A DNA stretch of 41,933 bases from an uncultured Candidatus Saccharibacteria bacterium. GTDB lineage: Bacteria > Patescibacteriota > Saccharimonadia > Saccharimonadales > Saccharimonadaceae. Numbering within the stretch: position 1 is the first letter of the stretch; the number at the start of each line of letters is the position of its first letter. Position numbers and translations under genes: made by a program. The notes under the pieces were generated by a model. It was given only the letters and a program-made list of their open reading frames with translations, did not search any database and had not been told where the DNA came from. Location of the stretch: NCBI GenBank assembly GCA_946414345.1, contig CAMKOB010000008.1, positions 1 through 41,933 on the forward strand. The letters are read 5' to 3'. This document shows positions 5,506-27,592 of this stretch, piece after piece.

Positions 5506-5514
5506 ATTATATAC
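5506..5514 (-). promoter_or_regulatory. Leaderless promoter of the UvrD-like gene, overlapping the MurA-fusion stop
   Basis: TATAAT runs 5511 to 5506 on the minus strand. The TAA stop of the upstream gene (5509 to 5507) lies inside it. The ATG begins at 5499, 7 nt downstream. Confidence 0.7.
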
Positions 5515-7057
5515 CAGTTAATGGCGAAATGTCCGCACCAAGATGCCTTAATCTTGCCGCAAAATCTTGATATCCGCGATTAATCGGATAAACATTGCGC
5601 AAAATCGAAGTTCCAGGCGCCGCCAACATCCCAATTAGCACTACCACCGCCGGGCGCAAAGCCTGCGGAGCCGTCAAATCCGCCGGTCGCCAATTAGTTG
5701 GTCCCTCAATGTAAAGCCTATGCGCATCAAGCAATTCCACTTTAGCATTCAAATTCGCCAGCTCAGTTGTATAAATCGCACGATTTTCGAACACCCAGTC
5801 GTGAATCATCGTCCGCCCTTTTGCTACCGCCGCAATCACCGAGAAAAACGGCAAATTGTCAATATTGAGTCCTGGAAATGGCATCGGATGAATCTTATCC
5901 TTTGGCGCCACTAGTTCAGATTTCATAATCTTCAAATCAATCAATCTCGTTCGTCCATTCGCTGACAAATACTCTGCCGATTTCTCATATTTAGCATTCA
6001 TTGACTTCAAAACTTCTAGCTCAATTTCCAAAAATTCAATTGGCGCCCTCTGAATCGTAATTTCCGAGTTTGTTACATACGCCGCCGCAATAAAGCTCAT
6101 TGCTTCAATCGGGTCTTCCGATACATCATATTCAACATCTTCATCAATTCGCGCCCGCCCTTTAACCGTCAAAGTCGTTGTGCCAATTCCACTAATTTTT
6201 ACACCCAACTTCTCCAAGAAGAAACACATATCTTGCACCATATAATTTGGTGAAGCACCCACAATTGTTGTTTTGCCCGGCGAAAGCGCCGCCGCCATCA
6301 ACACATTTTCTGTTACAGTGTCACCACGCTCAATCAATACGATATAACGATCATTATATTTATTTAGAGTATGCTGATTTACTGTCACATCGTAAAAACC
6401 GCTTCTGCATTGCGCATCAACATCCAAGCCAAATGATTCTAGTGCCTTAATGTGCGGTTCCACCGTTCTAGTTCCAAGTGAACAACCACCAGCATAAGGT
6501 AATTGAAAATGTTTATAGCGATGGAGTAATGGCCCTAAAAACATTATTATTGAACGTGTTTTTCGCGCCGCCTCGAGGTCCATCTCTTCAAGTTTCAATT
6601 CACGTGGTGATATAATTTCTAGGTCTCTATGACGGTTTGTCCAACGACATTTTACACCAATTGACTCCAAAACCTCCACAATTCTAAACACTTCTTCAAT
6701 TCGCGCAATACGATGAAAAGTAGTTTTCCCGGCATTTAGAAGCGATGCACAGAGTAACCCTACTGCCGCATTTTTTGACGTATTTACCGTAATTTCACCA
6801 GAAAGTTCCTTCCCTCCCCGAATCCGAAAACTCTGTTTTGCTGAGTCATTTATAGAGAGAATTTGACTCCCTAAAGCCTCCGAAAGCTTTTTTATCATTT
6901 CAAGCGATACATTTTGTCCGCCTTTTTCAATCCGATGAATCGCCGACTGACTCGTCCCCACCATCTCTGCAAGTTCGCCTTGCGTTAACCCCCTATCAGT
7001 CCTCATTTGTTCAATAGTTTCACCAATCACCTGATGATAAGTCTTCATTTTTTTCAT
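5507..7057 (-). CDS. XRE helix-turn-helix fused to a MurA-like enolpyruvyl transferase
   Basis: Residues 9-70 form an XRE DNA-binding domain (IGETIEQMRTDRGLTQGELAEMVGTSQSAIHRIEKG). From about residue 78 the protein is a full MurA fold. MurA transfers enolpyruvate from PEP to UDP-GlcNAc, the first committed step of peptidoglycan synthesis. Visible active-site elements are SKNAAV (K95, N96), TRSIIMFLGPL (R168 region), GGCSLGTRTVEPH with the PEP-binding cysteine C192, and PGLNIDNLP with an aspartate where the general base sits. The cysteine predicts fosfomycin sensitivity. Total 516 residues against about 420 for MurA. The start at 7057 rather than the upstream TTG is chosen because TATAAT ends exactly 7 nt before it. 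It is divergent from pgk. It could be an enzyme, a cell-wall-sensing regulator, or both. Confidence 0.87.
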   Translation of the reverse strand: MKKMKTYHQVIGETIEQMRTDRGLTQGELAEMVGTSQSAIHRIEKGGQNVSLEMIKKLSEALGSQILSINDSAKQSFRIRGGKELSGEITVNTSKNAAVGLLCASLLNAGKTTFHRIARIEEVFRIVEVLESIGVKCRWTNRHRDLEIISPRELKLEEMDLEAARKTRSIIMFLGPLLHRYKHFQLPYAGGCSLGTRTVEPHIKALESFGLDVDAQCRSGFYDVTVNQHTLNKYNDRYIVLIERGDTVTENVLMAAALSPGKTTIVGASPNYMVQDMCFFLEKLGVKISGIGTTTLTVKGRARIDEDVEYDVSEDPIEAMSFIAAAYVTNSEITIQRAPIEFLEIELEVLKSMNAKYEKSAEYLSANGRTRLIDLKIMKSELVAPKDKIHPMPFPGLNIDNLPFFSVIAAVAKGRTMIHDWVFENRAIYTTELANLNAKVELLDAHRLYIEGPTNWRPADLTAPQALRPAVVVLIGMLAAPGTSILRNVYPINRGYQDFAARLRHLGADISPLTGI

Positions 7058-7063
7058 AAGCAA

Positions 7064-8178: not shown

Positions 8179-9477
8179 TTAACTTTTTATTACTTCAAAC
8201 TGTATTATCGTCAGCGAACCCATATCATTCTGACCATCAATTCCATTACCGCCAATAGTAATCGTAGCATTATTCAAGTTAGACGGTACAGTATTCTTTC
8301 CTCTAATATACTTATTTTGATTATATCCCACCATCGAAGCATTGATAATCGGCTGTTTATTCCAGCCAGTTGGATCATAAGTAATAGTAATATCAAACGT
8401 TCTTTCACCAGTCAAGGCAGAAGAGCTAAGCGTTAGATAATAATTTGGCGTCAATTGCCCAGTACTACTACTTCTTGCACGGTTCTTATACACACCCACT
8501 CTTAAATATCCTCTATTATAGTCATACAAAGCAAAGCCATCATAATTGTTCCCATTCGGTTGCAAAGCCGTCAAGACAAATTTACCATTTTCATTAGATA
8601 AATCAGTTTTAAACACAATGTGTATAGTAAATGCCCTACCGTCAAACGCGATCACCCCAGTATCGATATTTTGGCCCGGCAAAACTTCCAAACCTCCGCT
8701 CGTACTATTAGTTGTATCAATCGAATATCCAGTCACCCGCCCATTTTCGTCAACATCCTGTACGCTTACGTTACCATATTGATCGGTCGTAGTTATCGTT
8801 TCCGATCCATCTGGATTTACAACGATAACAGTACCACCACTCTGCACTTCTGTAAATTGATAGTTCACCACACCGTTAGTTAAATCTTGGTAGTTACTCG
8901 CCACCGTACCACCAGAAATGATAGACGGATCGTAAGAATATTTAGCATAGAAACTCGCCGTCCCACCAGCCGCCACCGAACCAGTCATATCCACCACATT
9001 TGTAGTACTGAGCCCCAATGAAGTCGCTTCTGCGAGCGTTAATACCGACGGCACAATATACTGATTTGTATAAGTACCAAGCTGACTCGTTGGATCATAT
9101 AAAATGTCCGACAATTCATATGCGGTATTATTCTTATTCTTTACATCTATTTTATATATAATATACGAGTTGCCATCCGAACCAAGATGCACAGAGTTGG
9201 TTAGCAAGGTAGAATAATATGTCTTAATCGTCTGAGTAGAACCCGAACCATTCGTAGCCGCCACCGAAACATCAGTAATAAAAACGCCGCCCTGCGTATT
9301 AGCAACAATATCACCGCCAATTGTTAATTCAGAAGTAATACTCGCATAACCAATCCCCAGAAAAATCACTACGATTATAAACATCATCGCAAGCGGAGTT
9401 CGCACAAAATCAAACAAACCCCTCAATCGATAATTTGAAATCTTTGCTTTTTTAGCTCCAGTTTTCATCTTATTCAT
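8179..9477 (-). CDS. TasA-like exported protein with a C-terminal lectin-like domain
   Basis: Residues 1-27 are basic and 28-45 form a membrane helix. The helix ends in FLGIGYASITSELTIGG, the GYA-xIT-x-L-x-I-G signature seen in exported proteins processed by SipW-type signal peptidases (TasA/camelysin class). A beta-rich domain (about 55-200) and a linker rich in T, D and G follow. The C-terminal part (about 255-432), with FTIHIVFKTDLSN, FALYDYNRGYLRVGVY and ATITIGGNGIDG, resembles a concanavalin-A/LamG-like fold; this is inference. It is the last gene of the four-gene SipW operon, and its ATG overlaps the end of the preceding gene. A second in-frame ATG at 9468 is possible. Likely a surface fibre or adhesin subunit. 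Confidence 0.78.
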   Translation of the reverse strand: MNKMKTGAKKAKISNYRLRGLFDFVRTPLAMMFIIVVIFLGIGYASITSELTIGGDIVANTQGGVFITDVSVAATNGSGSTQTIKTYYSTLLTNSVHLGSDGNSYIIYKIDVKNKNNTAYELSDILYDPTSQLGTYTNQYIVPSVLTLAEATSLGLSTTNVVDMTGSVAAGGTASFYAKYSYDPSIISGGTVASNYQDLTNGVVNYQFTEVQSGGTVIVVNPDGSETITTTDQYGNVSVQDVDENGRVTGYSIDTTNSTSGGLEVLPGQNIDTGVIAFDGRAFTIHIVFKTDLSNENGKFVLTALQPNGNNYDGFALYDYNRGYLRVGVYKNRARSSSTGQLTPNYYLTLSSSALTGERTFDITITYDPTGWNKQPIINASMVGYNQNKYIRGKNTVPSNLNNATITIGGNGIDGQNDMGSLTIIQFEVIKS

Positions 9478-10516
9478 CTAAGTCTGTCACCTTAAAAGTA
9501 AACCGATACACCGTACTATTATCTTGAGTTGGAATCACAAACTCGGTCTGGCGCGGCTTTGTTTTTTGATGCATCAGCACTGGCGCCTGCAACGAATCCC
9601 TAATCTCAAACAAGTCTTCCAACGTTTCTACCTCTATCAAGCGCATCTTCCCAACCTTATATGGCTCTGAAACTGGTTGCAAGAAAGCAGAATAGGTTTT
9701 TTGAATTTTTTCTATTTCACGTTGATAATTTTGCAAAGGTGTTCTCGCCTTACGAATTCTACGCACAATATCAAAGAATTCAAACACTGCAATCACTAAG
9801 AATATTAGTGAGAAAATTAGATATGGCGTTTTATTTCCAGTCTGTTGTATTTTCAAGAAATCATTACTATAAAAATCATTACTATCAATACTTACTGCTA
9901 TAGTCTTCGTTGTCAAAGGAACCGAAAAGCTGATCCTCGCTATTTTATCGGTGTCCTTAATATTCAGATCAGTTTCTGTTGTGAGGTCCACATACATAGT
10001 GACCGTAAGTGTGCTTTCTGTCCCATCCAATTCGTATACATTGATAAATTTGTTGATTAGCTCATTATATCTAACATAATCAACATTTATTAATCTAAAT
10101 AATACTTTATCAAGCTCCAATTCCGTTTCAGGCACCAACTCTTCTTCATAATTATAAATCGTATTATGCGAAACTTTATCAAGCACATTTATTTCGGCAA
10201 TAACATTATATTTTCCTTTAAGGTTTACATCTTCAGTTGAAGCCTTAAAATCATATCTGAAATTCGCATCTATATGATCAATCAAACTTGCGATATACTC
10301 GTTACTTTTTTCTTCATATGTTTCACTAAAGAACTCATTTTCTTGCAAAATTACAGAAGTTGTTACATCACCAACCTCCGAATAGGTAATATTATAATCT
10401 CTAGCCAAGAAAATATACGCCGACAAGCTCCCAAGCATCAAAAGAATATCAAATACCAACAAAACAATCAGTTTTGGTACCAAATTTCCTTTCTTTTTTT
10501 GCTTCTTTTCTTTCAT
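9470..10516 (-). CDS. DUF5305-like membrane protein of the SipW operon
   Basis: This protein of about 348 residues has a basic start, a membrane helix (VPKLIVLLVFDILLMLGSLSAYIFLA) and an extracytoplasmic beta-rich region of about 200 residues. That region opens with ARDYNITYSEVGDVTTSVILQENEFF and includes EYIASLIDHIDANFRYDF. A second helix (YLIFSLIFLVIAVFEFFDIV) and a cytoplasmic tail complete it. The pattern is that of DUF5305-type proteins found beside SipW signal peptidases in Firmicutes; the match is from memory, not a search. The start is set at the ATG at 10516, which overlaps the stop of the signal peptidase (TAATG). ATGs up to 10552 lie further upstream in the same frame. Function unknown; perhaps a chaperone or assembly factor for the TasA-like substrates. 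Confidence 0.72.
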   Translation of the reverse strand: MKEKKQKKKGNLVPKLIVLLVFDILLMLGSLSAYIFLARDYNITYSEVGDVTTSVILQENEFFSETYEEKSNEYIASLIDHIDANFRYDFKASTEDVNLKGKYNVIAEINVLDKVSHNTIYNYEEELVPETELELDKVLFRLINVDYVRYNELINKFINVYELDGTESTLTVTMYVDLTTETDLNIKDTDKIARISFSVPLTTKTIAVSIDSNDFYSNDFLKIQQTGNKTPYLIFSLIFLVIAVFEFFDIVRRIRKARTPLQNYQREIEKIQKTYSAFLQPVSEPYKVGKMRLIEVETLEDLFEIRDSLQAPVLMHQKTKPRQTEFVIPTQDNSTVYRFTFKVTDLDE

Positions 10517-11658
10517 TAGTCGAATACTTCCTTTAGCCATAAGGTTGGCCAACCCACCGCCGGCACTTTAAACAGTACCTTTCCCATTAAATCACTTTTT
10601 GTTACATATCCTTCGTCTTCGCTTTCATTCATGTCACCTTTAGTGTAATATCTTTCTTCTCCAGCCACTGTGCTAATTTTAATTAACCGGTGAACAATTC
10701 TCTCATTGCGTCTGTTAAATACAACAATGTCACCTTCACGCAGTCTTTCGTCCGCACCAATTCTTTTCATCACCACCACATCGCCCGTGTCTATGGCACC
10801 AGACATCGAGCTCGAACCAATGACGATTGCCCCCACACTAAATTGGCACGAAACTACCATAATAAAACCCACCATTATTATGCACGCTATTGTTCCAAGT
10901 ATTCTCCCAAGCACTGTCCCACCCTTAGCCAGTGCTTTCTCGTCGTGCTTGACAAATGTCCTGTCTATTACCCAATACACAAATAGCGGCGCCATCATCC
11001 TACAAAAACTACTAAAGAAAGCATACACGTCAGGCAATACCGGAATAATGTATGCATATAGCGACGTAATCAAACGATAAGCGATAATTGAACCCGCGCC
11101 AAACCTTACACTTATAAAATTATATAGCAAGTTTGATGTCAGCGCTGCCCCAACTAGCCCAATTAAAAGCAATAGCTGTTCCAATTGCCTAGTATCATAA
11201 ACCGCCATATAAATAGCAACCTCTGATAGCACCCCTATCAAATAGGTCATTATCCGTGAATACTTCCCTTTAAAGCATAGCAACTTTGCTCTAATTATTT
11301 CAGTACTAATAATGGTTACACCAATCGGAAAGATAAAATTCTTTATGCTAAACCATCCAAATTTAACATCATTTACTGCGTAACCAGTATATGCACCTAA
11401 CGCATAGTAGAGCCCCACATACAGTAGGCCCAACACTATCATATATTTTAAAAGAACGCTTTTTTCGAGTGGCAATATCTTAAATGACTTCAAGAATATC
11501 ACCATCACTGCCGCAATCACTGCGGTAACACCAGCAAGTATAATTCGAAGAGGAAACCCCGTAAAGCCAGGCAGCTTCATCGCCGCCAAAACCATCAGCA
11601 ATGCAAGAAAAGCTACTCCTATCCCCTCAAAAAATTTCACTCTTCTGCTTGCTGGCAT
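10516..11658 (-). CDS. sipW: SipW-type signal peptidase I with an N-terminal multi-spanning domain
   Basis: The C-terminal part (about residues 255-380) is an ER/archaeal-type signal peptidase. It has a membrane helix, then GSSSMSGAIDTGDVVVMKR with the nucleophile near S284, GDIVVFNRRNERIVHRLIKI with His (about 323) in place of the lysine of ordinary bacterial LepB, and YYTKGDMNESED with the aspartate position. This Ser-His-Asp type removes signal peptides from TasA-like proteins in Bacillus. Unusually, the first 220 or so residues form about six membrane helices not found in B. subtilis SipW. AGAGGA precedes the ATG. It sits between two proteins with the expected substrate signature, which supports the assignment. 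Confidence 0.88.
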   Translation of the reverse strand: MPASRRVKFFEGIGVAFLALLMVLAAMKLPGFTGFPLRIILAGVTAVIAAVMVIFLKSFKILPLEKSVLLKYMIVLGLLYVGLYYALGAYTGYAVNDVKFGWFSIKNFIFPIGVTIISTEIIRAKLLCFKGKYSRIMTYLIGVLSEVAIYMAVYDTRQLEQLLLLIGLVGAALTSNLLYNFISVRFGAGSIIAYRLITSLYAYIIPVLPDVYAFFSSFCRMMAPLFVYWVIDRTFVKHDEKALAKGGTVLGRILGTIACIIMVGFIMVVSCQFSVGAIVIGSSSMSGAIDTGDVVVMKRIGADERLREGDIVVFNRRNERIVHRLIKISTVAGEERYYTKGDMNESEDEGYVTKSDLMGKVLFKVPAVGWPTLWLKEVFD

Positions 11659-11680
11659 TCTATCCTCTCGTTACATACCT

Positions 11681-12262
11681 TCAGTTGGTTGCAGTTGCTT
11701 GCAATGTACAAGTAATAGTAGTTGATACATCGGCATCAACCGGTAATTTTACCAATTTTACCGTTACAGTTTGGCTTGTAGATGGCGTTGCGCCACCAGC
11801 TTTAGTCAAAGTACTTGTCCCAAGCGTAGTAGTAATTTCAAAATATCCGCCAGTATCGGTTTGTGTACAACTTGGCGTACCGAGGCTAGCACCTAAATCA
11901 ACACTGGCATTCGTAATCGTATAAACCAAAGTAGCAGTTTCATTCATTTTCTTCATACCGGTAACCGTAAACGAAGCTGTTTTGGTTGGATAAGATGACG
12001 TAGTATCGGTCACAGTGCCAGTACCACCACTACTAATGCTATGATCCGTATTAGCAGTATAATTAATATTAAAAACTGTATCATCCGGCGTAGCCGTCGC
12101 TTGCGTCCCAGTACCACCAATTTGAAGGGTTGAGGTAATCGCAGCATAACCCACACCGAGAATCGCCACAATCGCTAGCGCAATAATCGCAATCAGACCT
12201 TGTTGGTCCTTCGTCGAGCGTTTTTTCGCCACCCTGGTTAATTTCGTTTTCTTTTGTGCCAT
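11681..12262 (-). CDS. Small TasA-like exported protein
   Basis: This 193-residue protein has a basic N-terminus (KKTKLTRVAKKRSTKDQQ), a membrane helix at about 22-40 and the signature LGVGYAAITSTLQIGGTGTQA, matching the large protein at 8179-9477. The exported part is rich in T, S and V, predicted beta, with two cysteines (PSCTQ and TITCTLQ) that could pair. It is the first gene of the operon and probably the main substrate of the signal peptidase 22 nt downstream. AAAGGA lies about 6 nt before the ATG. A fibre subunit role is inferred by analogy with TasA; no sequence identity with TasA is claimed. Confidence 0.8.
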   Translation of the reverse strand: MAQKKTKLTRVAKKRSTKDQQGLIAIIALAIVAILGVGYAAITSTLQIGGTGTQATATPDDTVFNINYTANTDHSISSGGTGTVTDTTSSYPTKTASFTVTGMKKMNETATLVYTITNASVDLGASLGTPSCTQTDTGGYFEITTTLGTSTLTKAGGATPSTSQTVTVKLVKLPVDADVSTTITCTLQATATN

Positions 12263-12309: not shown

Positions 12310-12318
12310 ATTATATAT
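12310..12318 (-). promoter_or_regulatory. Promoter of the SipW/TasA-like operon
   Basis: TATAAT (12315 to 12310, minus strand) is followed by a leader of about 40 nt ending in AGAAAGGA. Unlike most first genes nearby, this operon has a true leader and Shine-Dalgarno. Confidence 0.6.
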
Positions 12319-12409
12319 TTATTTCAATAAAAAATCAAGACTGACTGTAGGCAAAAAATACTTAAAAATCAAACAATAAAACACGCCCAAAAGAATCATC
12401 TTAATTTTA

Positions 12410-21071: not shown

Positions 21072-24000
21072 CTACCGAGCTACACAACGCACAGAAAACC
21101 CAATACGACGATCGCCATTATATTGAGGGTCTGTGTAATTAGTATGATTGAAAAACAATCTATATATATAAATATTATCATGTACTACAGAAGACCAATA
21201 GTGACCATAGCGACCAACGCCATCAGACGACCCCCACCAATCTCCACTATAGACAAAATACGCAGGAGAATTCTGAATATTGCCAGAAGTACCACTAGTA
21301 AGACCAAGCGTCTCAACAAGATTGCTATAAGATTTATTGCCGCTACGAATTGGAAGTTGCCAACCGGCCGGGCAAATAGACTGACCAGTATCAGCTCCAT
21401 CCGTAATATAATTATCACTACTATTCATGGCAATAGCGGCCGTCCAGTTATAATAGTTTCCGATATGCATATGCCTATTATCACCGCAAACAGTAGTACC
21501 AGTTGTTATATCATAATAACCAAGCACACCATTCCAACATAAATCACCCGGATCATAAGACTGCGGTTCAGCCGTTGTATTATGCCAAGTCGTATCATTA
21601 GTAGCATAAGTAGCGACGCTTGGAGTCCAAGTTGAAGGAATATCAGTATTGGCAGAAGTATAATAGTCTGCCCGCGCCACAATGTCATGATCCAAATTTT
21701 GCGTCATCCAAACATTACCATCAGCAAGTTTAGAAATATAATAAGTCTTCTCATCACGATTATCTTTTAGTTGATATTGCCGACCCCTAGGCATAGAAGC
21801 CAACACGCCAGTTTTTTCCTCACTCGTAAGCGTCGCAAAATCCTGCATATAAGTAAGATCAGAAATACTTATGCTAGGTCCAGCTTCACCAGTACGAGCC
21901 ACGCACCGCACCGACCCTCCGGCGTAACGATGAAACTCAACGCCAACATCCATAGTACCACCACGGGTAAAGGAAAAACCCCAAGCACCAGAATCTCTAT
22001 AAATTGAGGATGGCCAATAGGACCCCGAGCTACCTGTACCAGTGGTTCCCAAGCCACCTGAAGCAATAGACCATGCCGGGTCCCAACCTCCACCATATAC
22101 AAAATACAGAGGCGCATTTTGGATATTGCCAGAAACACCACTGGTAAGATCATATTCCGTAACTAACCCATCATATGATCTGCTACCACTAAGAGCTGGC
22201 AATCTCCAACCAGCCGGACAGATAGACTGGTTCACATCGGTATGATTAGCGGTATAAGAACTGCTATCATTCATCGCTATTGCAGCTGTAAAATTATAAT
22301 AATTGCCAATATGGTAATGCTTTTCATTGCCACAGGCTCCAGCATAATCATCCAACGTCCCATAATAATCCGGCGAAATAGCACCATTCCAACAAAGATC
22401 TCCCGGGTCATAAGATTCCGGAGTCGAATCAGAGTGTTCCCAAGTACTATCACCCGTAGAATAGGTAGAACGCGCTGGCTTCCAAGTGGCCGTTTCATAT
22501 TGTTGAGTATTAGAATTATACCCAATATCAGTATTCTCGTTAGTATAAGTCTTTTGCGATCTTATATCTAAATCCAAATTCTGCGTCATCCACACCTCAT
22601 ACTCATCACCGAGTAAAATTTTCGTAATTGTATAGCTCTTTCCATCACGCCCATCCACAAGCGTATACTGTGTTTCCGGCGTCATTGAGCCAACAATCTG
22701 CTCGCTATTTGGTCCGGCAAAATCTTGCATACAAACAGCACCGCCAATCGTAGTTGCTCCTGGATTACAGTCAATAGCAATTTCCCACTGCGCATAAAGC
22801 GTAATTGTTTCGCCTGGCTGCACCAAATCTAAGACTATATCATCTGGCTGATACCACGTACCAGTACCGTCGGAGCGCGTATTCCAACCAATGAATTCAT
22901 AACCAGCATTAGTAAACTCATTAGAATAGATATTCGCATTCGTATGTGGTAATACCCGCTGATTGCTCATACTGCCATTCCCACCATTAGAATCGTAGCG
23001 GATACTGTAATCATTAAACAGATAAAGATCAATTGTTTTTCCGGCATATTCATCATAATAATAAACTATCGCGCTTTTTAATTCTTCTTCATCACGAAAC
23101 CATTTTCCACTTATCAAATAGCCATCGTCGTCAATTACATTGTACCAAATCCTTTTTGGTTGTACGGAACCATTATTTCCATACCCCACCGGTAAACTAT
23201 ATTCGCCAGACTTATTAGCAAACGAGCAAACCCGTTCGGGGATAGTATCTTCTTGTTCATCATCGTAGATTGGATATAATCTAGCATAAAAACCATAGTT
23301 ATAACCACTTACTGGCTCATCATAGCTTTCCATCATAAATGTCAATGTGTCACCATCAACAACAAATGTTTCCCTGCCAGAAATATTACTGCCAGTATCA
23401 GACTCTTCGTCCCAAGTTGTAATTTCGTAAATAGGCAGATTTAAAATTGGCCCGCCATCAAATTGACCTTCGAAAATGCCTATCCACGCCTCATCTGTTA
23501 AAGCATATTCAATCTCGATTTTAATTTTATCGGCTCTTGGGAGCGTAACGGATTGGGCATAGTATCCGACATATGGCTCCATCATGCCGCCTTCGTCATC
23601 CAAATTATCACTTTTAGCAAAATGGCAATATGCATCTTCGATTGTTTCTATATTACTTGGTTTTTGATAAAAAACTGGATAAACCTTGGCATAAAAACCA
23701 TAGTTATAACCTTCAATTGGCTCGCCATACGTCCAGTTAACAATAGTAATTGCATCACCAAGAACCATAAATGTCTGTGTATTTTTTTGAGATTCATATG
23801 TATATATTTGTTCATATTCACCATTGTAATACCAACCATCATAATCATATATGTCATCAACGGCACCAAATATAATATCCGTATAGGATTCTCCAGCAAA
23901 AGCATAATCTATTTCCACTCTTAAAGCATCAGCACCAGGAATACTGACAATTTTATTAACAGTTGGTAAATATCGGCCACTCTGAGAATCCCGTTCACTT

Positions 24001-25049
24001 ATTGGATAGGGACCACTCTGTGTCCCATCATCACGAATATTTGGCGTCTTCACGATTTCTGGTTGTTCTGTGGTATAAACTTTGGAACAGTTACCACCTA
24101 CATAAGCTAGTTCGCAAGATGTACCGTAAACCACAGTGTTTACATCCTTGGTCCCAGCCTGGTCAAAATAATATCCATTACCATGGAAGTTTACGGTTAC
24201 GTCACCGTCAGTCACGTGCGCCACAGCAATATAATTAATCGTTACGCCCTCATAAGTACCATAGTCTAAATCTGGAGTAACATAGGCTCCGTAATAAAGC
24301 GTAGTTTCATCATTAGCTTCTGTGGCATCAGAACCAGAGACCTTTACCACCATAGCATCTTTTTCTGCTGTTGGAAGCCCTCTAAATTTAATCTCATCCT
24401 GTGAGTTTGGTCGAGATAGAGCAATGCCCCAGGTATTGTCTGTGAGAGCTTGGGATTGGCTAGTCTCTAGCATGGTAATAGCATCGTTAGAATCATTAGT
24501 TAAATCTGCACTAGTACTATCTACATAGGCCATTAATGTATACCCAGTATCTGTAGCGGTAGTAACTTTTACTTTGCTCTCACCAACTCCAAATACCGCT
24601 TCGTCTTCCATTTCTATATCAATAGCAGTAATGTCCTCTGTGGTAACTGTAAGAGAAGGGCCATCTACGGCTTCTGCACTGGCCATACGTTGATTATCGT
24701 TAAACTTGAGAATACCAAAAACACTAACTAGGATAATGAAGGATAACCCAGCGAGTTTCGGAACTAAATACTTTTGAGCACCAAGCTTCATTGGTGCATA
24801 GCCACCAAAACCATTAATCGAACTTTGTTTCTTGCGCCGTCTAATTAACAGAACAATTATGGCAACAACAACCAACACTATTAAACCAATAGCAATAAAC
24901 AAGGCCGTATTATTATTAAAAGCCTCATCCAGCCATTTACCAATACTCAACATACCAGTATCCGGAGCTCCTGCATCAGGAACTCCGTCTGTGTCTGGCA
25001 CCACAATTTCACTAGGATCAATCAAGTTGACCAGCAACCTAGATGACAT
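21072..25049 (-). CDS. Giant surface protein: PDTG tail, two TM, CUB-like repeats, InlB repeat, two FISUMP domains
   Basis: This protein has 1325 residues. PDTG is at 29-32, TM1 at 49-69 with the basic tail RRRKKQ, and TM2 at 97-115. A beta-rich domain (about 130-320) opens with TVTTEDITAIDIEMEDEAVF and contains GYTLMAYVDS. Two similar beta repeats (about 365-475 and 505-620) carry [IL]P[GR]AD-x-[LI]-[RK]-[VI]-EI and GY-NYGFYA-[KR]-[VL]-YP, like degenerate CUB domains. Then comes an InlB/Listeria-Bacteroides repeat (690-765; YDSNGG, GYEFIGWNT, LYAQW). Two tandem FISUMP domains (785-1055 and 1055-1325) follow, each with VWMTQNLD, YDPGDLCWNG, HIGNYYN, SICPAGW-LP and SVRCVAR. AAGGA precedes the ATG, and a small ORF and the family promoter lie upstream. 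Likely a host-contact or adhesion protein. Confidence 0.88.
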   Translation of the reverse strand: MSSRLLVNLIDPSEIVVPDTDGVPDAGAPDTGMLSIGKWLDEAFNNNTALFIAIGLIVLVVVAIIVLLIRRRKKQSSINGFGGYAPMKLGAQKYLVPKLAGLSFIILVSVFGILKFNDNQRMASAEAVDGPSLTVTTEDITAIDIEMEDEAVFGVGESKVKVTTATDTGYTLMAYVDSTSADLTNDSNDAITMLETSQSQALTDNTWGIALSRPNSQDEIKFRGLPTAEKDAMVVKVSGSDATEANDETTLYYGAYVTPDLDYGTYEGVTINYIAVAHVTDGDVTVNFHGNGYYFDQAGTKDVNTVVYGTSCELAYVGGNCSKVYTTEQPEIVKTPNIRDDGTQSGPYPISERDSQSGRYLPTVNKIVSIPGADALRVEIDYAFAGESYTDIIFGAVDDIYDYDGWYYNGEYEQIYTYESQKNTQTFMVLGDAITIVNWTYGEPIEGYNYGFYAKVYPVFYQKPSNIETIEDAYCHFAKSDNLDDEGGMMEPYVGYYAQSVTLPRADKIKIEIEYALTDEAWIGIFEGQFDGGPILNLPIYEITTWDEESDTGSNISGRETFVVDGDTLTFMMESYDEPVSGYNYGFYARLYPIYDDEQEDTIPERVCSFANKSGEYSLPVGYGNNGSVQPKRIWYNVIDDDGYLISGKWFRDEEELKSAIVYYYDEYAGKTIDLYLFNDYSIRYDSNGGNGSMSNQRVLPHTNANIYSNEFTNAGYEFIGWNTRSDGTGTWYQPDDIVLDLVQPGETITLYAQWEIAIDCNPGATTIGGAVCMQDFAGPNSEQIVGSMTPETQYTLVDGRDGKSYTITKILLGDEYEVWMTQNLDLDIRSQKTYTNENTDIGYNSNTQQYETATWKPARSTYSTGDSTWEHSDSTPESYDPGDLCWNGAISPDYYGTLDDYAGACGNEKHYHIGNYYNFTAAIAMNDSSSYTANHTDVNQSICPAGWRLPALSGSRSYDGLVTEYDLTSGVSGNIQNAPLYFVYGGGWDPAWSIASGGLGTTGTGSSGSYWPSSIYRDSGAWGFSFTRGGTMDVGVEFHRYAGGSVRCVARTGEAGPSISISDLTYMQDFATLTSEEKTGVLASMPRGRQYQLKDNRDEKTYYISKLADGNVWMTQNLDHDIVARADYYTSANTDIPSTWTPSVATYATNDTTWHNTTAEPQSYDPGDLCWNGVLGYYDITTGTTVCGDNRHMHIGNYYNWTAAIAMNSSDNYITDGADTGQSICPAGWQLPIRSGNKSYSNLVETLGLTSGTSGNIQNSPAYFVYSGDWWGSSDGVGRYGHYWSSVVHDNIYIYRLFFNHTNYTDPQYNGDRRIGFSVRCVAR

Positions 25050-25348: not shown

Positions 25349-27592
25349 TTAGTCACTCTCCCACTGCGCATAAAGTGTTAAAGTCTCACCCAAATGCCCT
25401 TCAGCGGAAATCGGATCATCCGGATAATACCAATCACCATTTCCATCTGGTCTCGTATTCCAGCCTACGAAAACATACCCATCCTTCTTAAGATAGTCGC
25501 TATTCCAAATGCTCCGATTACCATCGAACTCTCCAATCCATTGTCTATTCCAAACAGGTTCCCAATCATCATAACTTGGTACGCCACCATTGGCATCATA
25601 ATTTATGATACGATAACCAGCTGCGTAAATATCTACTATTCTTCCAGCATAATAATCAATACGCGCCATAATATAATCTAGCATTCTGAATTGGCCATAA
25701 AACATCCGAGGTTGCCCATAGTAATCTTCACCCTCAATTTCAACAATCAAATACCACTGTTTATCAGGGAACGGATAGTCATCCGGAACAACAAACTCTT
25801 CAAACGCCCCATCCTTTATGCCAAATGCACAATTCTGCGCTGGTACAGTACCCTCTTGTTCTTCATCGTAGGCAGGGTAAAGTTTTGCAAAAAACCCATA
25901 TCCATAGCCTTCTACTGGCTCGTCCCAGAATCCATAATCAAAAGTCACAGTGTCACCGTCGAAAAATAATTCCTTTGTACCAGATATGTTCTCATTGTAA
26001 GCATATAAGTCTTCCCAAGAATTCCAGTCGCCATGTTCAAAACCTTCAACTATCTCTATTTCCGCTTCTTCCGTCAATGCATAATCTATTTCAACCTTAA
26101 TATGTGTTGCGCCTGGTATCGTTATAGGCTTAGTAATCCAGTTTTCATATTCATACAATCCAGTCGCATTTCCGTCATCGTCAATATTTTTACTTTTTAC
26201 AATGTAACATAAAGTATCTTCTATGGTGTTTACACTTTCCGGCTGTTCATAATAGATTGGGTAAACTCTCGCATAGAAACCATAATCATAGTCCTCAATC
26301 GGTTCACTACTTGCCCAAAAAAGAATCGTCGCGGCATCAGAATCAAAAACAAAAGTTTCTTCTCCGGCAGCATAATCACCATAACCAGTATATATCTCTG
26401 CATCATACCGAAAGTCATTATAATCCAAAACTCCACGAGCCATATCTAAGCCCACCGAACCCTGTTGATCAGAAATAGCATAATTAACTTCGATTTTAAT
26501 CGCATCAGCGCCAGGAATGCTTATGGACTGATAAATTTCATCTATCGGATAGGCCCCGTCCTGTGTCCCGTCATCAAGAATATTTGACGTCTTTACAATG
26601 GTATGTGGCTGTTCAGTAGTGTAGACTTTGCGGCAATTTCCACCTACATAAAACATTTCACAAGATGTACCATAAACTACAGTATTGGTGTCCTTGGTTT
26701 TTGCCTCATCAAAATAAAATCCATTCCCATGAAACCTTAATGTGATATCATCAGTGTCTATCACATGCGCCACAGCAACATAATTAATAGTAACCCCATC
26801 ATAGGTACCATACTCTAAATCTGGAGTAACATAAGTTCCGTAATATAGTGTAGTTTCGTCATTGGCTTCTGTGGCATCAGACCCAGAAACTTTTACCACC
26901 ATAGCATCCTCTTCTGTGGTAGGGAGTCCTCTAAAGATAGTTTGTTCTTGACTTTCTGGTCTAGTTAAGGAGATACCCCAAGTATTGTCCGTAAGGGCTT
27001 GGGAATAGCTAGTTTCCAGCATCTCAATAACATCATCAGACTCCGTATTAGTGAGACTAGTGGTACTACTATCTACATAAGCCATCAAAGTGTATCCATT
27101 ATCAGTAGCAGTAGTAACGGTTACTTTTGTTTCACCCATGCCAAATACTGCCTCGTCTTCCACTTCTATATCAATAGCGGTAATGTCTTCCGTAGTAACA
27201 GTAAGTGTATTGTTAGCTGCTTCTACGTTGCTGGTCATATGCTTTTCGTTGTAGCTTAAGAAACCAAATGCAGCGATAAGAACCAATGTAAATAATCCTG
27301 CAAGTCTAGGAACTAAATGTCTTTTAGTATTAAGTGTCATACCATTATAAGAACCACCTAGTTTATTTACTAGCTTTTGTTTCTTATGTCTTTTGATTAG
27401 AAGAATAATGACTGTTACAATAGCAAGCAGTACCGCTAGGCTAATAACGGTAATTATTAATGCATTGCTATTTTGGACATTGTTAGTACCTTGCCCAATA
27501 CTAAAAATACCAGTATCTGGTGTACCGCCATCAGTGTCTGGTATCACTATGTCGCTTGGTTCAATTAGATTGACCATCAGCCGAGAAGACAT
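25349..27592 (-). CDS. Surface protein: PDTG tail, two TM, CUB-like repeats, terminal InlB repeat
   Basis: This 747-residue paralogue of the 21072-25049 protein has the same start (MSSRLMVNLIEPSDIVIPDTD). PDTG is at 25-28, TM1 about 44-66 followed by KRHKKQK, and TM2 about 95-113. The beta domain TVTTEDITAIDIEVEDEAVF is nearly identical. CEMFYVGGNCRKVYTTEQ gives two conserved cysteines. Two CUB-like repeats follow (SIPGADAIKIEVNYA and TIPGATHIKVEIDYA, each ending Y-YGF[YF]A). The protein ends with an InlB-type repeat (YDANGGVP, GYVFVGWNT, LYAQWESD). There is no FISUMP domain, so it stops where its neighbour continues. AAAGGA precedes the ATG, and it has its own family promoter, so it is not simply cotranscribed from upstream. 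Confidence 0.88.
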   Translation of the reverse strand: MSSRLMVNLIEPSDIVIPDTDGGTPDTGIFSIGQGTNNVQNSNALIITVISLAVLLAIVTVIILLIKRHKKQKLVNKLGGSYNGMTLNTKRHLVPRLAGLFTLVLIAAFGFLSYNEKHMTSNVEAANNTLTVTTEDITAIDIEVEDEAVFGMGETKVTVTTATDNGYTLMAYVDSSTTSLTNTESDDVIEMLETSYSQALTDNTWGISLTRPESQEQTIFRGLPTTEEDAMVVKVSGSDATEANDETTLYYGTYVTPDLEYGTYDGVTINYVAVAHVIDTDDITLRFHGNGFYFDEAKTKDTNTVVYGTSCEMFYVGGNCRKVYTTEQPHTIVKTSNILDDGTQDGAYPIDEIYQSISIPGADAIKIEVNYAISDQQGSVGLDMARGVLDYNDFRYDAEIYTGYGDYAAGEETFVFDSDAATILFWASSEPIEDYDYGFYARVYPIYYEQPESVNTIEDTLCYIVKSKNIDDDGNATGLYEYENWITKPITIPGATHIKVEIDYALTEEAEIEIVEGFEHGDWNSWEDLYAYNENISGTKELFFDGDTVTFDYGFWDEPVEGYGYGFFAKLYPAYDEEQEGTVPAQNCAFGIKDGAFEEFVVPDDYPFPDKQWYLIVEIEGEDYYGQPRMFYGQFRMLDYIMARIDYYAGRIVDIYAAGYRIINYDANGGVPSYDDWEPVWNRQWIGEFDGNRSIWNSDYLKKDGYVFVGWNTRPDGNGDWYYPDDPISAEGHLGETLTLYAQWESD

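Follow-up and report, generated by a model that had tools for sequence, protein, structure and literature searches.

A putative donor-strand fibre cassette with a SipW-type peptidase and a DUF5305 protein, probably acquired horizontally by an uncultured Saccharibacterium

The window analysed here is a stretch of 41,933 nucleotides, contig 8 of an uncultured Candidatus Saccharibacteria bacterium whose genome measures 861 kb and is 98.8% complete. Positions 8179-12262 hold a cassette of four co-directional genes on the minus strand, running from a small secreted protein through a peptidase and a DUF5305 protein to a large secreted protein. Because the small-protein and peptidase genes are separated by a single 22-base gap and overlaps follow thereafter, we regard the cassette as one operon. 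Its features are the following:

12310..12338, minus strand: promoter-like sequence TTGATT-17-TATAAT upstream of the operon, recognised by a 10/12 consensus match only; the region has 22 such sites against 16 expected
11681..12262, minus strand: small secreted protein of 193 aa, candidate fibre subunit (open reading frame, alignment at A40, AbpX match, beta-sandwich model)
12104..12142, minus strand: mature residues 1-13 of the small subunit, AITSTLQIGGTGT, presumed to act as donor strand (by comparison with TasA 28-38)
10516..11658, minus strand: SipW-type signal peptidase of 380 aa, with an N-terminal multi-pass membrane domain of about 240 residues and a C-terminal S26B catalytic domain
9470..10552, minus strand: DUF5305 membrane protein of 360 aa (Pfam PF17231 over cut-off; hydropathy)
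8179..9477, minus strand: large secreted protein of 432 aa with the same signal, a fibre-like domain on the N-terminal side (residues 46 to about 235) and an exchangeable C-terminal module
8182..8730, minus strand: this C-terminal module, about 183-190 aa, which also occurs in further surface proteins of the genus (44% identity in genome G003)

A ribosome site (GAAAGG) precedes the small-protein start at 12262, and the ATG at 10516, which overlaps the peptidase stop, is likely the start of the DUF5305 gene. The converging pgk gene has its end about 10 bases downstream of the large gene. The six-frame translation of the window contains the motif GYA.IT..L.IGG at exactly two places, in the small and the large secreted protein (4e-7 occurrences expected from residue frequencies). 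Reading frames, motif count and family cut-offs thus agree with the preliminary description, which had seen here a two-substrate operon with a GYA-xIT-x-L-x-IGG signal, a SipW-type peptidase and a DUF5305 protein.

Elsewhere in the window (5507-7063, minus strand) a Cro/C1-type HTH (E=1e-14) precedes, in one fused protein, a complete EPSP/MurA-type enolpyruvyl transferase (E=1e-47). The fusion is conserved (L040:2112-3668) in the close congener Candidatus Saccharibacteria bacterium RGIG7166 (G247), which comes from water-buffalo abomasum. Near the cassette, at 21072-25049 and 25349-27592 on the minus strand, are two large probable surface proteins that contain Listeria-Bacteroides repeats (Flg_new); the one at 21072-25049 ends in Fib_succ_major.

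The peptidase scores 75.7 bits against TIGR02228 (cut-off 51.85). Its catalytic pair is Ser-His, without Lys and with a conserved Asp, the combination by which SipW and the S26B (ER-type) enzymes are recognised: Ser284, His323, Asp342 and Asp348 occupy conserved columns, and the Ser and His are invariant in 13 relatives. Of the solved structures, those of the ER signal peptidases SEC11A/C are closest (E=2e-20), which places the enzyme in the Ser-His class, as SipW, and bears out its earlier naming as SipW-type. Against the Bacillus SipW equivalog NF046067 it reaches 53.9 bits where the cut-off is 190; all 13 relatives match this model as well, the best with E 1e-16. The N-terminal membrane domain, with about six hydrophobic segments, matches no known family, and a single-protein search of the genome contigs with the window peptidase found no relative.

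For the DUF5305 protein, PF17231 gives 35.4 bits over residues 141-341 (gathering score 29), so that the DUF5305-like label proposed before is sustained by the family cut-off. Hydropathy indicates membrane segments at 29-47 and 245-263 that flank an outer domain, with a cytoplasmic tail. Comparison with the fibre subunits showed no similarity (hhalign 0.2%), and no solved relative was found; on these grounds a role as TapA-like subunit is ruled out by sequence. A literature search found no paper mentioning DUF5305.

The small secreted protein starts with a K/R-rich stretch followed by a hydrophobic segment (24-42). Cleavage is expected after A40 (GYA/AITSTLQIGG), a residue that is invariant in an alignment of 25 relatives. 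A profile of the Saccharibacterial small family matches AbpX (9sj2 and 9rhp, E=7.5e-6 and 4.5e-5) in the region beyond the signal, and a signal-free profile does so with E=0.001 and 0.009. The spacing P-G-x10-N-x-G is common to the small family and AbpX; the window protein itself has M-N at the position of its relatives' P-G. Given the AbpX match, a TasA/ABP-like fibre is better supported than it was from the first reading. AlphaFold models the mature protein as a beta-sandwich (pLDDT 82); its first 24 or so residues are unpaired in the monomer and coincide in position with the TasA donor strand (residues 28-38). Tandem small paralogues, four to seven copies upstream of the peptidase, are seen in Bacilli loci (L127, L130, L133, L136, L138), a pattern expected for fibre subunits.

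Comparison with the TasA/camelysin models PF12389 and NF046066 yields no match for the window protein. Among its relatives weak matches are found in 3 of 75 for PF12389 and in 2 of 25 for NF046066, with a best E of 0.0024 in either case. When the fold is compared (Foldseek/VIA), the top rows are generic Ig-like sandwiches (Z 6-7.5), and TasA, AbpA and AbpX are absent among the matches listed. The family also resembles DUF11/CARDB Ig-like domains with weak E. Pfam matches to PAD_N and Gp23 are at chance level and were rejected.

Substrate homology extends to the large protein. The profile of mature small proteins only and that of the large N-terminal domain align with an hhalign probability of 97.6-98.4% (E=3e-12 to 7e-15) over about 125 columns, the signal being excluded. 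Within the large proteins this domain is kept while the remainder is swapped: one set of 11 contains an RCC1 propeller in four cases and Hint in three, and 44 others contain fn3 in 18 and Hint in 7-8. In the Hint-type proteins (L008, L009, L041, L047, L049, L060-L063, L159, L160) the first Cys (CLIEGT) is retained, as is a G-H stretch further downstream; a fibre subunit may thus end in a domain capable of self-cleavage.

The C-terminal module of the window and G247 large proteins recurs elsewhere in surface proteins of this genus, which have an ordinary signal peptide and are accompanied by neither SipW nor DUF5305 in the loci read; several of them also have, as judged by eye, a Listeria-Bacteroides-type repeat. 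The window large protein therefore looks as if an acquired fibre domain had been joined to a native surface module. Among five loci of module-bearing surface proteins (L142, L144, L145, L146, L147) a cysteine-desulfurase-like gene adjoins in four, so the genus seems to have a chromosomal site at which such proteins recur. This module had been taken for a lectin-like domain, a view without sequence support: neither its sequence nor its 8-member profile matches Pfam or PDB sequences, and no family was detected. The model of the large protein is poor (pLDDT 54), and its fold search returns one low row (Z 4.7, NanB 39-164) on a stretch with pLDDT mostly below 50.

A search with a DUF5305 alignment yielded 79 named loci. 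The peptidase lies beside DUF5305 in 78 of these and the small subunit is present in 75, the exceptions beginning at a contig end. Conservation of the gene set across relatives, which was set beforehand as a test, thus holds: the small-SipW-DUF5305 core is complete in 75 loci and the remaining four are cut by contig ends. The large partner occurs in 51 of the 79. Hosts are ruminant and gut Saccharibacteria together with rumen and gut Bacilli, Erysipelotrichaceae, Tenericutes and Clostridia. Within the window genus the cassette is present in 7 of 174 genomes (one further match is a fragment), so this way of life does not depend on it; in the family, 41 of 246 genomes have it, and 16 of 61 genera. 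When 380 genomes were sampled across the phylum, four full-length matches came up, all in the window family, and one further match that is a 28-column fragment. A universal CPR attachment organelle is rejected because the full-length matches in this sample are confined to one family, and since its occurrence is patchy and shared with gut Bacilli, the cassette is not a general episymbiont device either. Two cassettes that differ from each other (L040, L041) are present in G247.

A tree of 91 peptidases scatters the Saccharibacterial rows over several groups among Bacillota. Their monophyly is rejected (AU p=0.00027), and the starred branches require three or more changes in the peptidase tree and likewise in the DUF5305 tree. 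Since the Saccharibacterial peptidases do not form one clade, transfer of the cassette between phyla is likely, as judged from these sequence trees. The window cassette sits on a long branch; its pairing with the Clostridiales locus L109 is unsure, long branches being in play.

Our preferred reading, to which we assign a probability of about 0.62, is that of a horizontally acquired fibre-assembly cassette that builds a donor-strand fibre, with the large protein displaying the swapped module. Operon, signals, peptidase class, substrate homology, gene order, module swapping, AbpX kinship and non-monophyly were computed directly; from them we infer cleavage after GYA, polymerisation, the donor-strand mechanism, the tip position of the large protein, the role of DUF5305 and attachment. 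The small protein would be secreted by Sec and held by its hydrophobic signal until the co-encoded Ser-His peptidase cuts it after GYA. This cut would free the N-terminal strand AITSTLQIGG, which could slot into the neighbouring subunit and complete its beta-sandwich, and repeated insertion would give a donor-strand fibre as in TasA and the archaeal bundling pili. An assembly platform or base anchor may be provided by the DUF5305 protein and its outer domain. As the large protein has the same strand and fibre domain, it would join the same fibre, probably at the tip, where it could display the lineage-exchanged C-terminal module (RCC1 propeller, fn3 with Hint, or the window module). The likely use of the fibre in the ruminant gut is to make contact with other cells or with surfaces.

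Taken further, the small-SipW-DUF5305-large genes might form a transferable cross-phylum display kit with a swapped payload (propeller, self-cleaving Hint or genus module) that has passed between gut Bacilli and the Saccharibacteria living next to them and serves partner choice. We offer this extension tentatively and would bet against it rather than for it.

Other explanations have to be weighed against the fibre. The two substrates could be separate membrane or wall surface proteins that share signal and peptidase and do not polymerise, the Ig-like domain being a mere spacer. The generic Ig-like domains among the fold matches and the weak resemblance to DUF11/CARDB domains would fit such proteins, and the fibre itself is deduced from sequence and model. 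Against this speak the significant AbpX match, the tandem small paralogues, the unpaired N-terminal strand of the model and a dedicated peptidase in every untruncated locus, and we consider non-polymerising substrates unlikely. Confusion with type IV pilin-like or sortase-anchored proteins is very improbable. The substrates do have a hydrophobic N-terminal segment behind a basic head, and Saccharibacteria rely on type IV pili (PMC12206443), but the substrate sequences contain neither a prepilin-type site nor an LPXTG tail, the conserved motif follows the hydrophobic stretch instead of preceding it, and a Ser-His peptidase always adjoins.

If a fibre is formed, its purpose may differ from host attachment. 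It could act as a biofilm-matrix fibre, the role of TasA, and serve aggregation with gut Bacilli that bear the same kit; if the fibre interfaces are shared, even mixed fibres are conceivable. Occurrence of the cassette in rumen and gut Bacilli and Clostridia is in line with this, and joint filaments of TasA homologues between species have been suggested (PMC10151520). Yet the lineage-specific C-terminal modules of the large protein resemble an adhesin more than a matrix scaffold, and small subunits elsewhere are mostly only 15-30% identical to that of the window. A matrix function is rather unlikely in our view, and we keep to the fibre with a displayed module as the preferred reading.

Beyond type IV pili (PMC12206443), the way in which episymbiotic Saccharibacteria recognise and hold their partners is largely open. 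If our reading is right, a further type of fibre exists here, whose tip module can be exchanged and which came from gut Bacilli or is shared with them. It would be a directly testable recognition device and a route of cell adhesion not described for Saccharibacteria. It would also extend TasA/archaeal-bundling-type fibres to a further bacterial phylum and hand DUF5305 a concrete, testable role. Our literature search found no paper joining Saccharibacteria with SipW. New here are the DUF5305-linked cassette, the membrane-extended peptidase, the modular display subunit and the spread between Bacillota and Saccharibacteria.

Among known systems, the Bacillus operons tapA-sipW-tasA and sipW-calY are alike in having a dedicated Ser-His peptidase of SipW type and co-encoded beta-rich secreted subunits, a major and a second one, that are cut near a hydrophobic segment. 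Bacillus SipW is about 190 aa long, whereas the cassette peptidase has the additional N-terminal membrane domain; moreover, the cassette includes a DUF5305 partner and, in place of TapA, a large two-domain display protein. As the cut-offs of the respective models are not reached, we do not class the cassette as TasA or Bacillus SipW. The initial comparison with Bacillus therefore stands in part: the peptidase type and a kinship to fibre subunits, by way of AbpX, are retained, but the nearest solved relative is an archaeal bundling pilin and not TasA. The accompanying view of the Bacillus fibres as amyloid has to be replaced, since the TasA fibres of B. subtilis have been solved as donor-strand polymers instead of classical amyloid, with residues 28-38 at the mature N-terminus as donor strand (PMC9674648).

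A separate SipW system is present in the same genus, where short SipW genes are paired with camelysin-type 'SYFTDSD' proteins (G012, G026, G048, G054; L004-L007). These pairs also combine a SipW-like peptidase with a small secreted substrate; their peptidases, however, measure 189-260 aa, the substrate signal is another one and DUF5305 is absent from the loci of about 3.4 kb that were read. Type IV pili of Saccharibacteria are comparable as surface filaments with a C-terminal beta-propeller in an adhesin candidate, namely PilX2 of the Saccharibacterium TM7x (PMC12206443), but their machinery is unrelated and they are nearly universal in the phylum, whereas the cassette is patchy. The archaeal bundling pili (AbpA in Pyrobaculum, AbpX in Pyrodictium) belong to another domain of life and the cassette, known from genes alone, differs from them by its operon with DUF5305 and a modular large protein. 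Nonetheless, ABP and ABPx are donor-strand fibres (PMC11952670), and the small-family profile matches AbpX over most of the domain.
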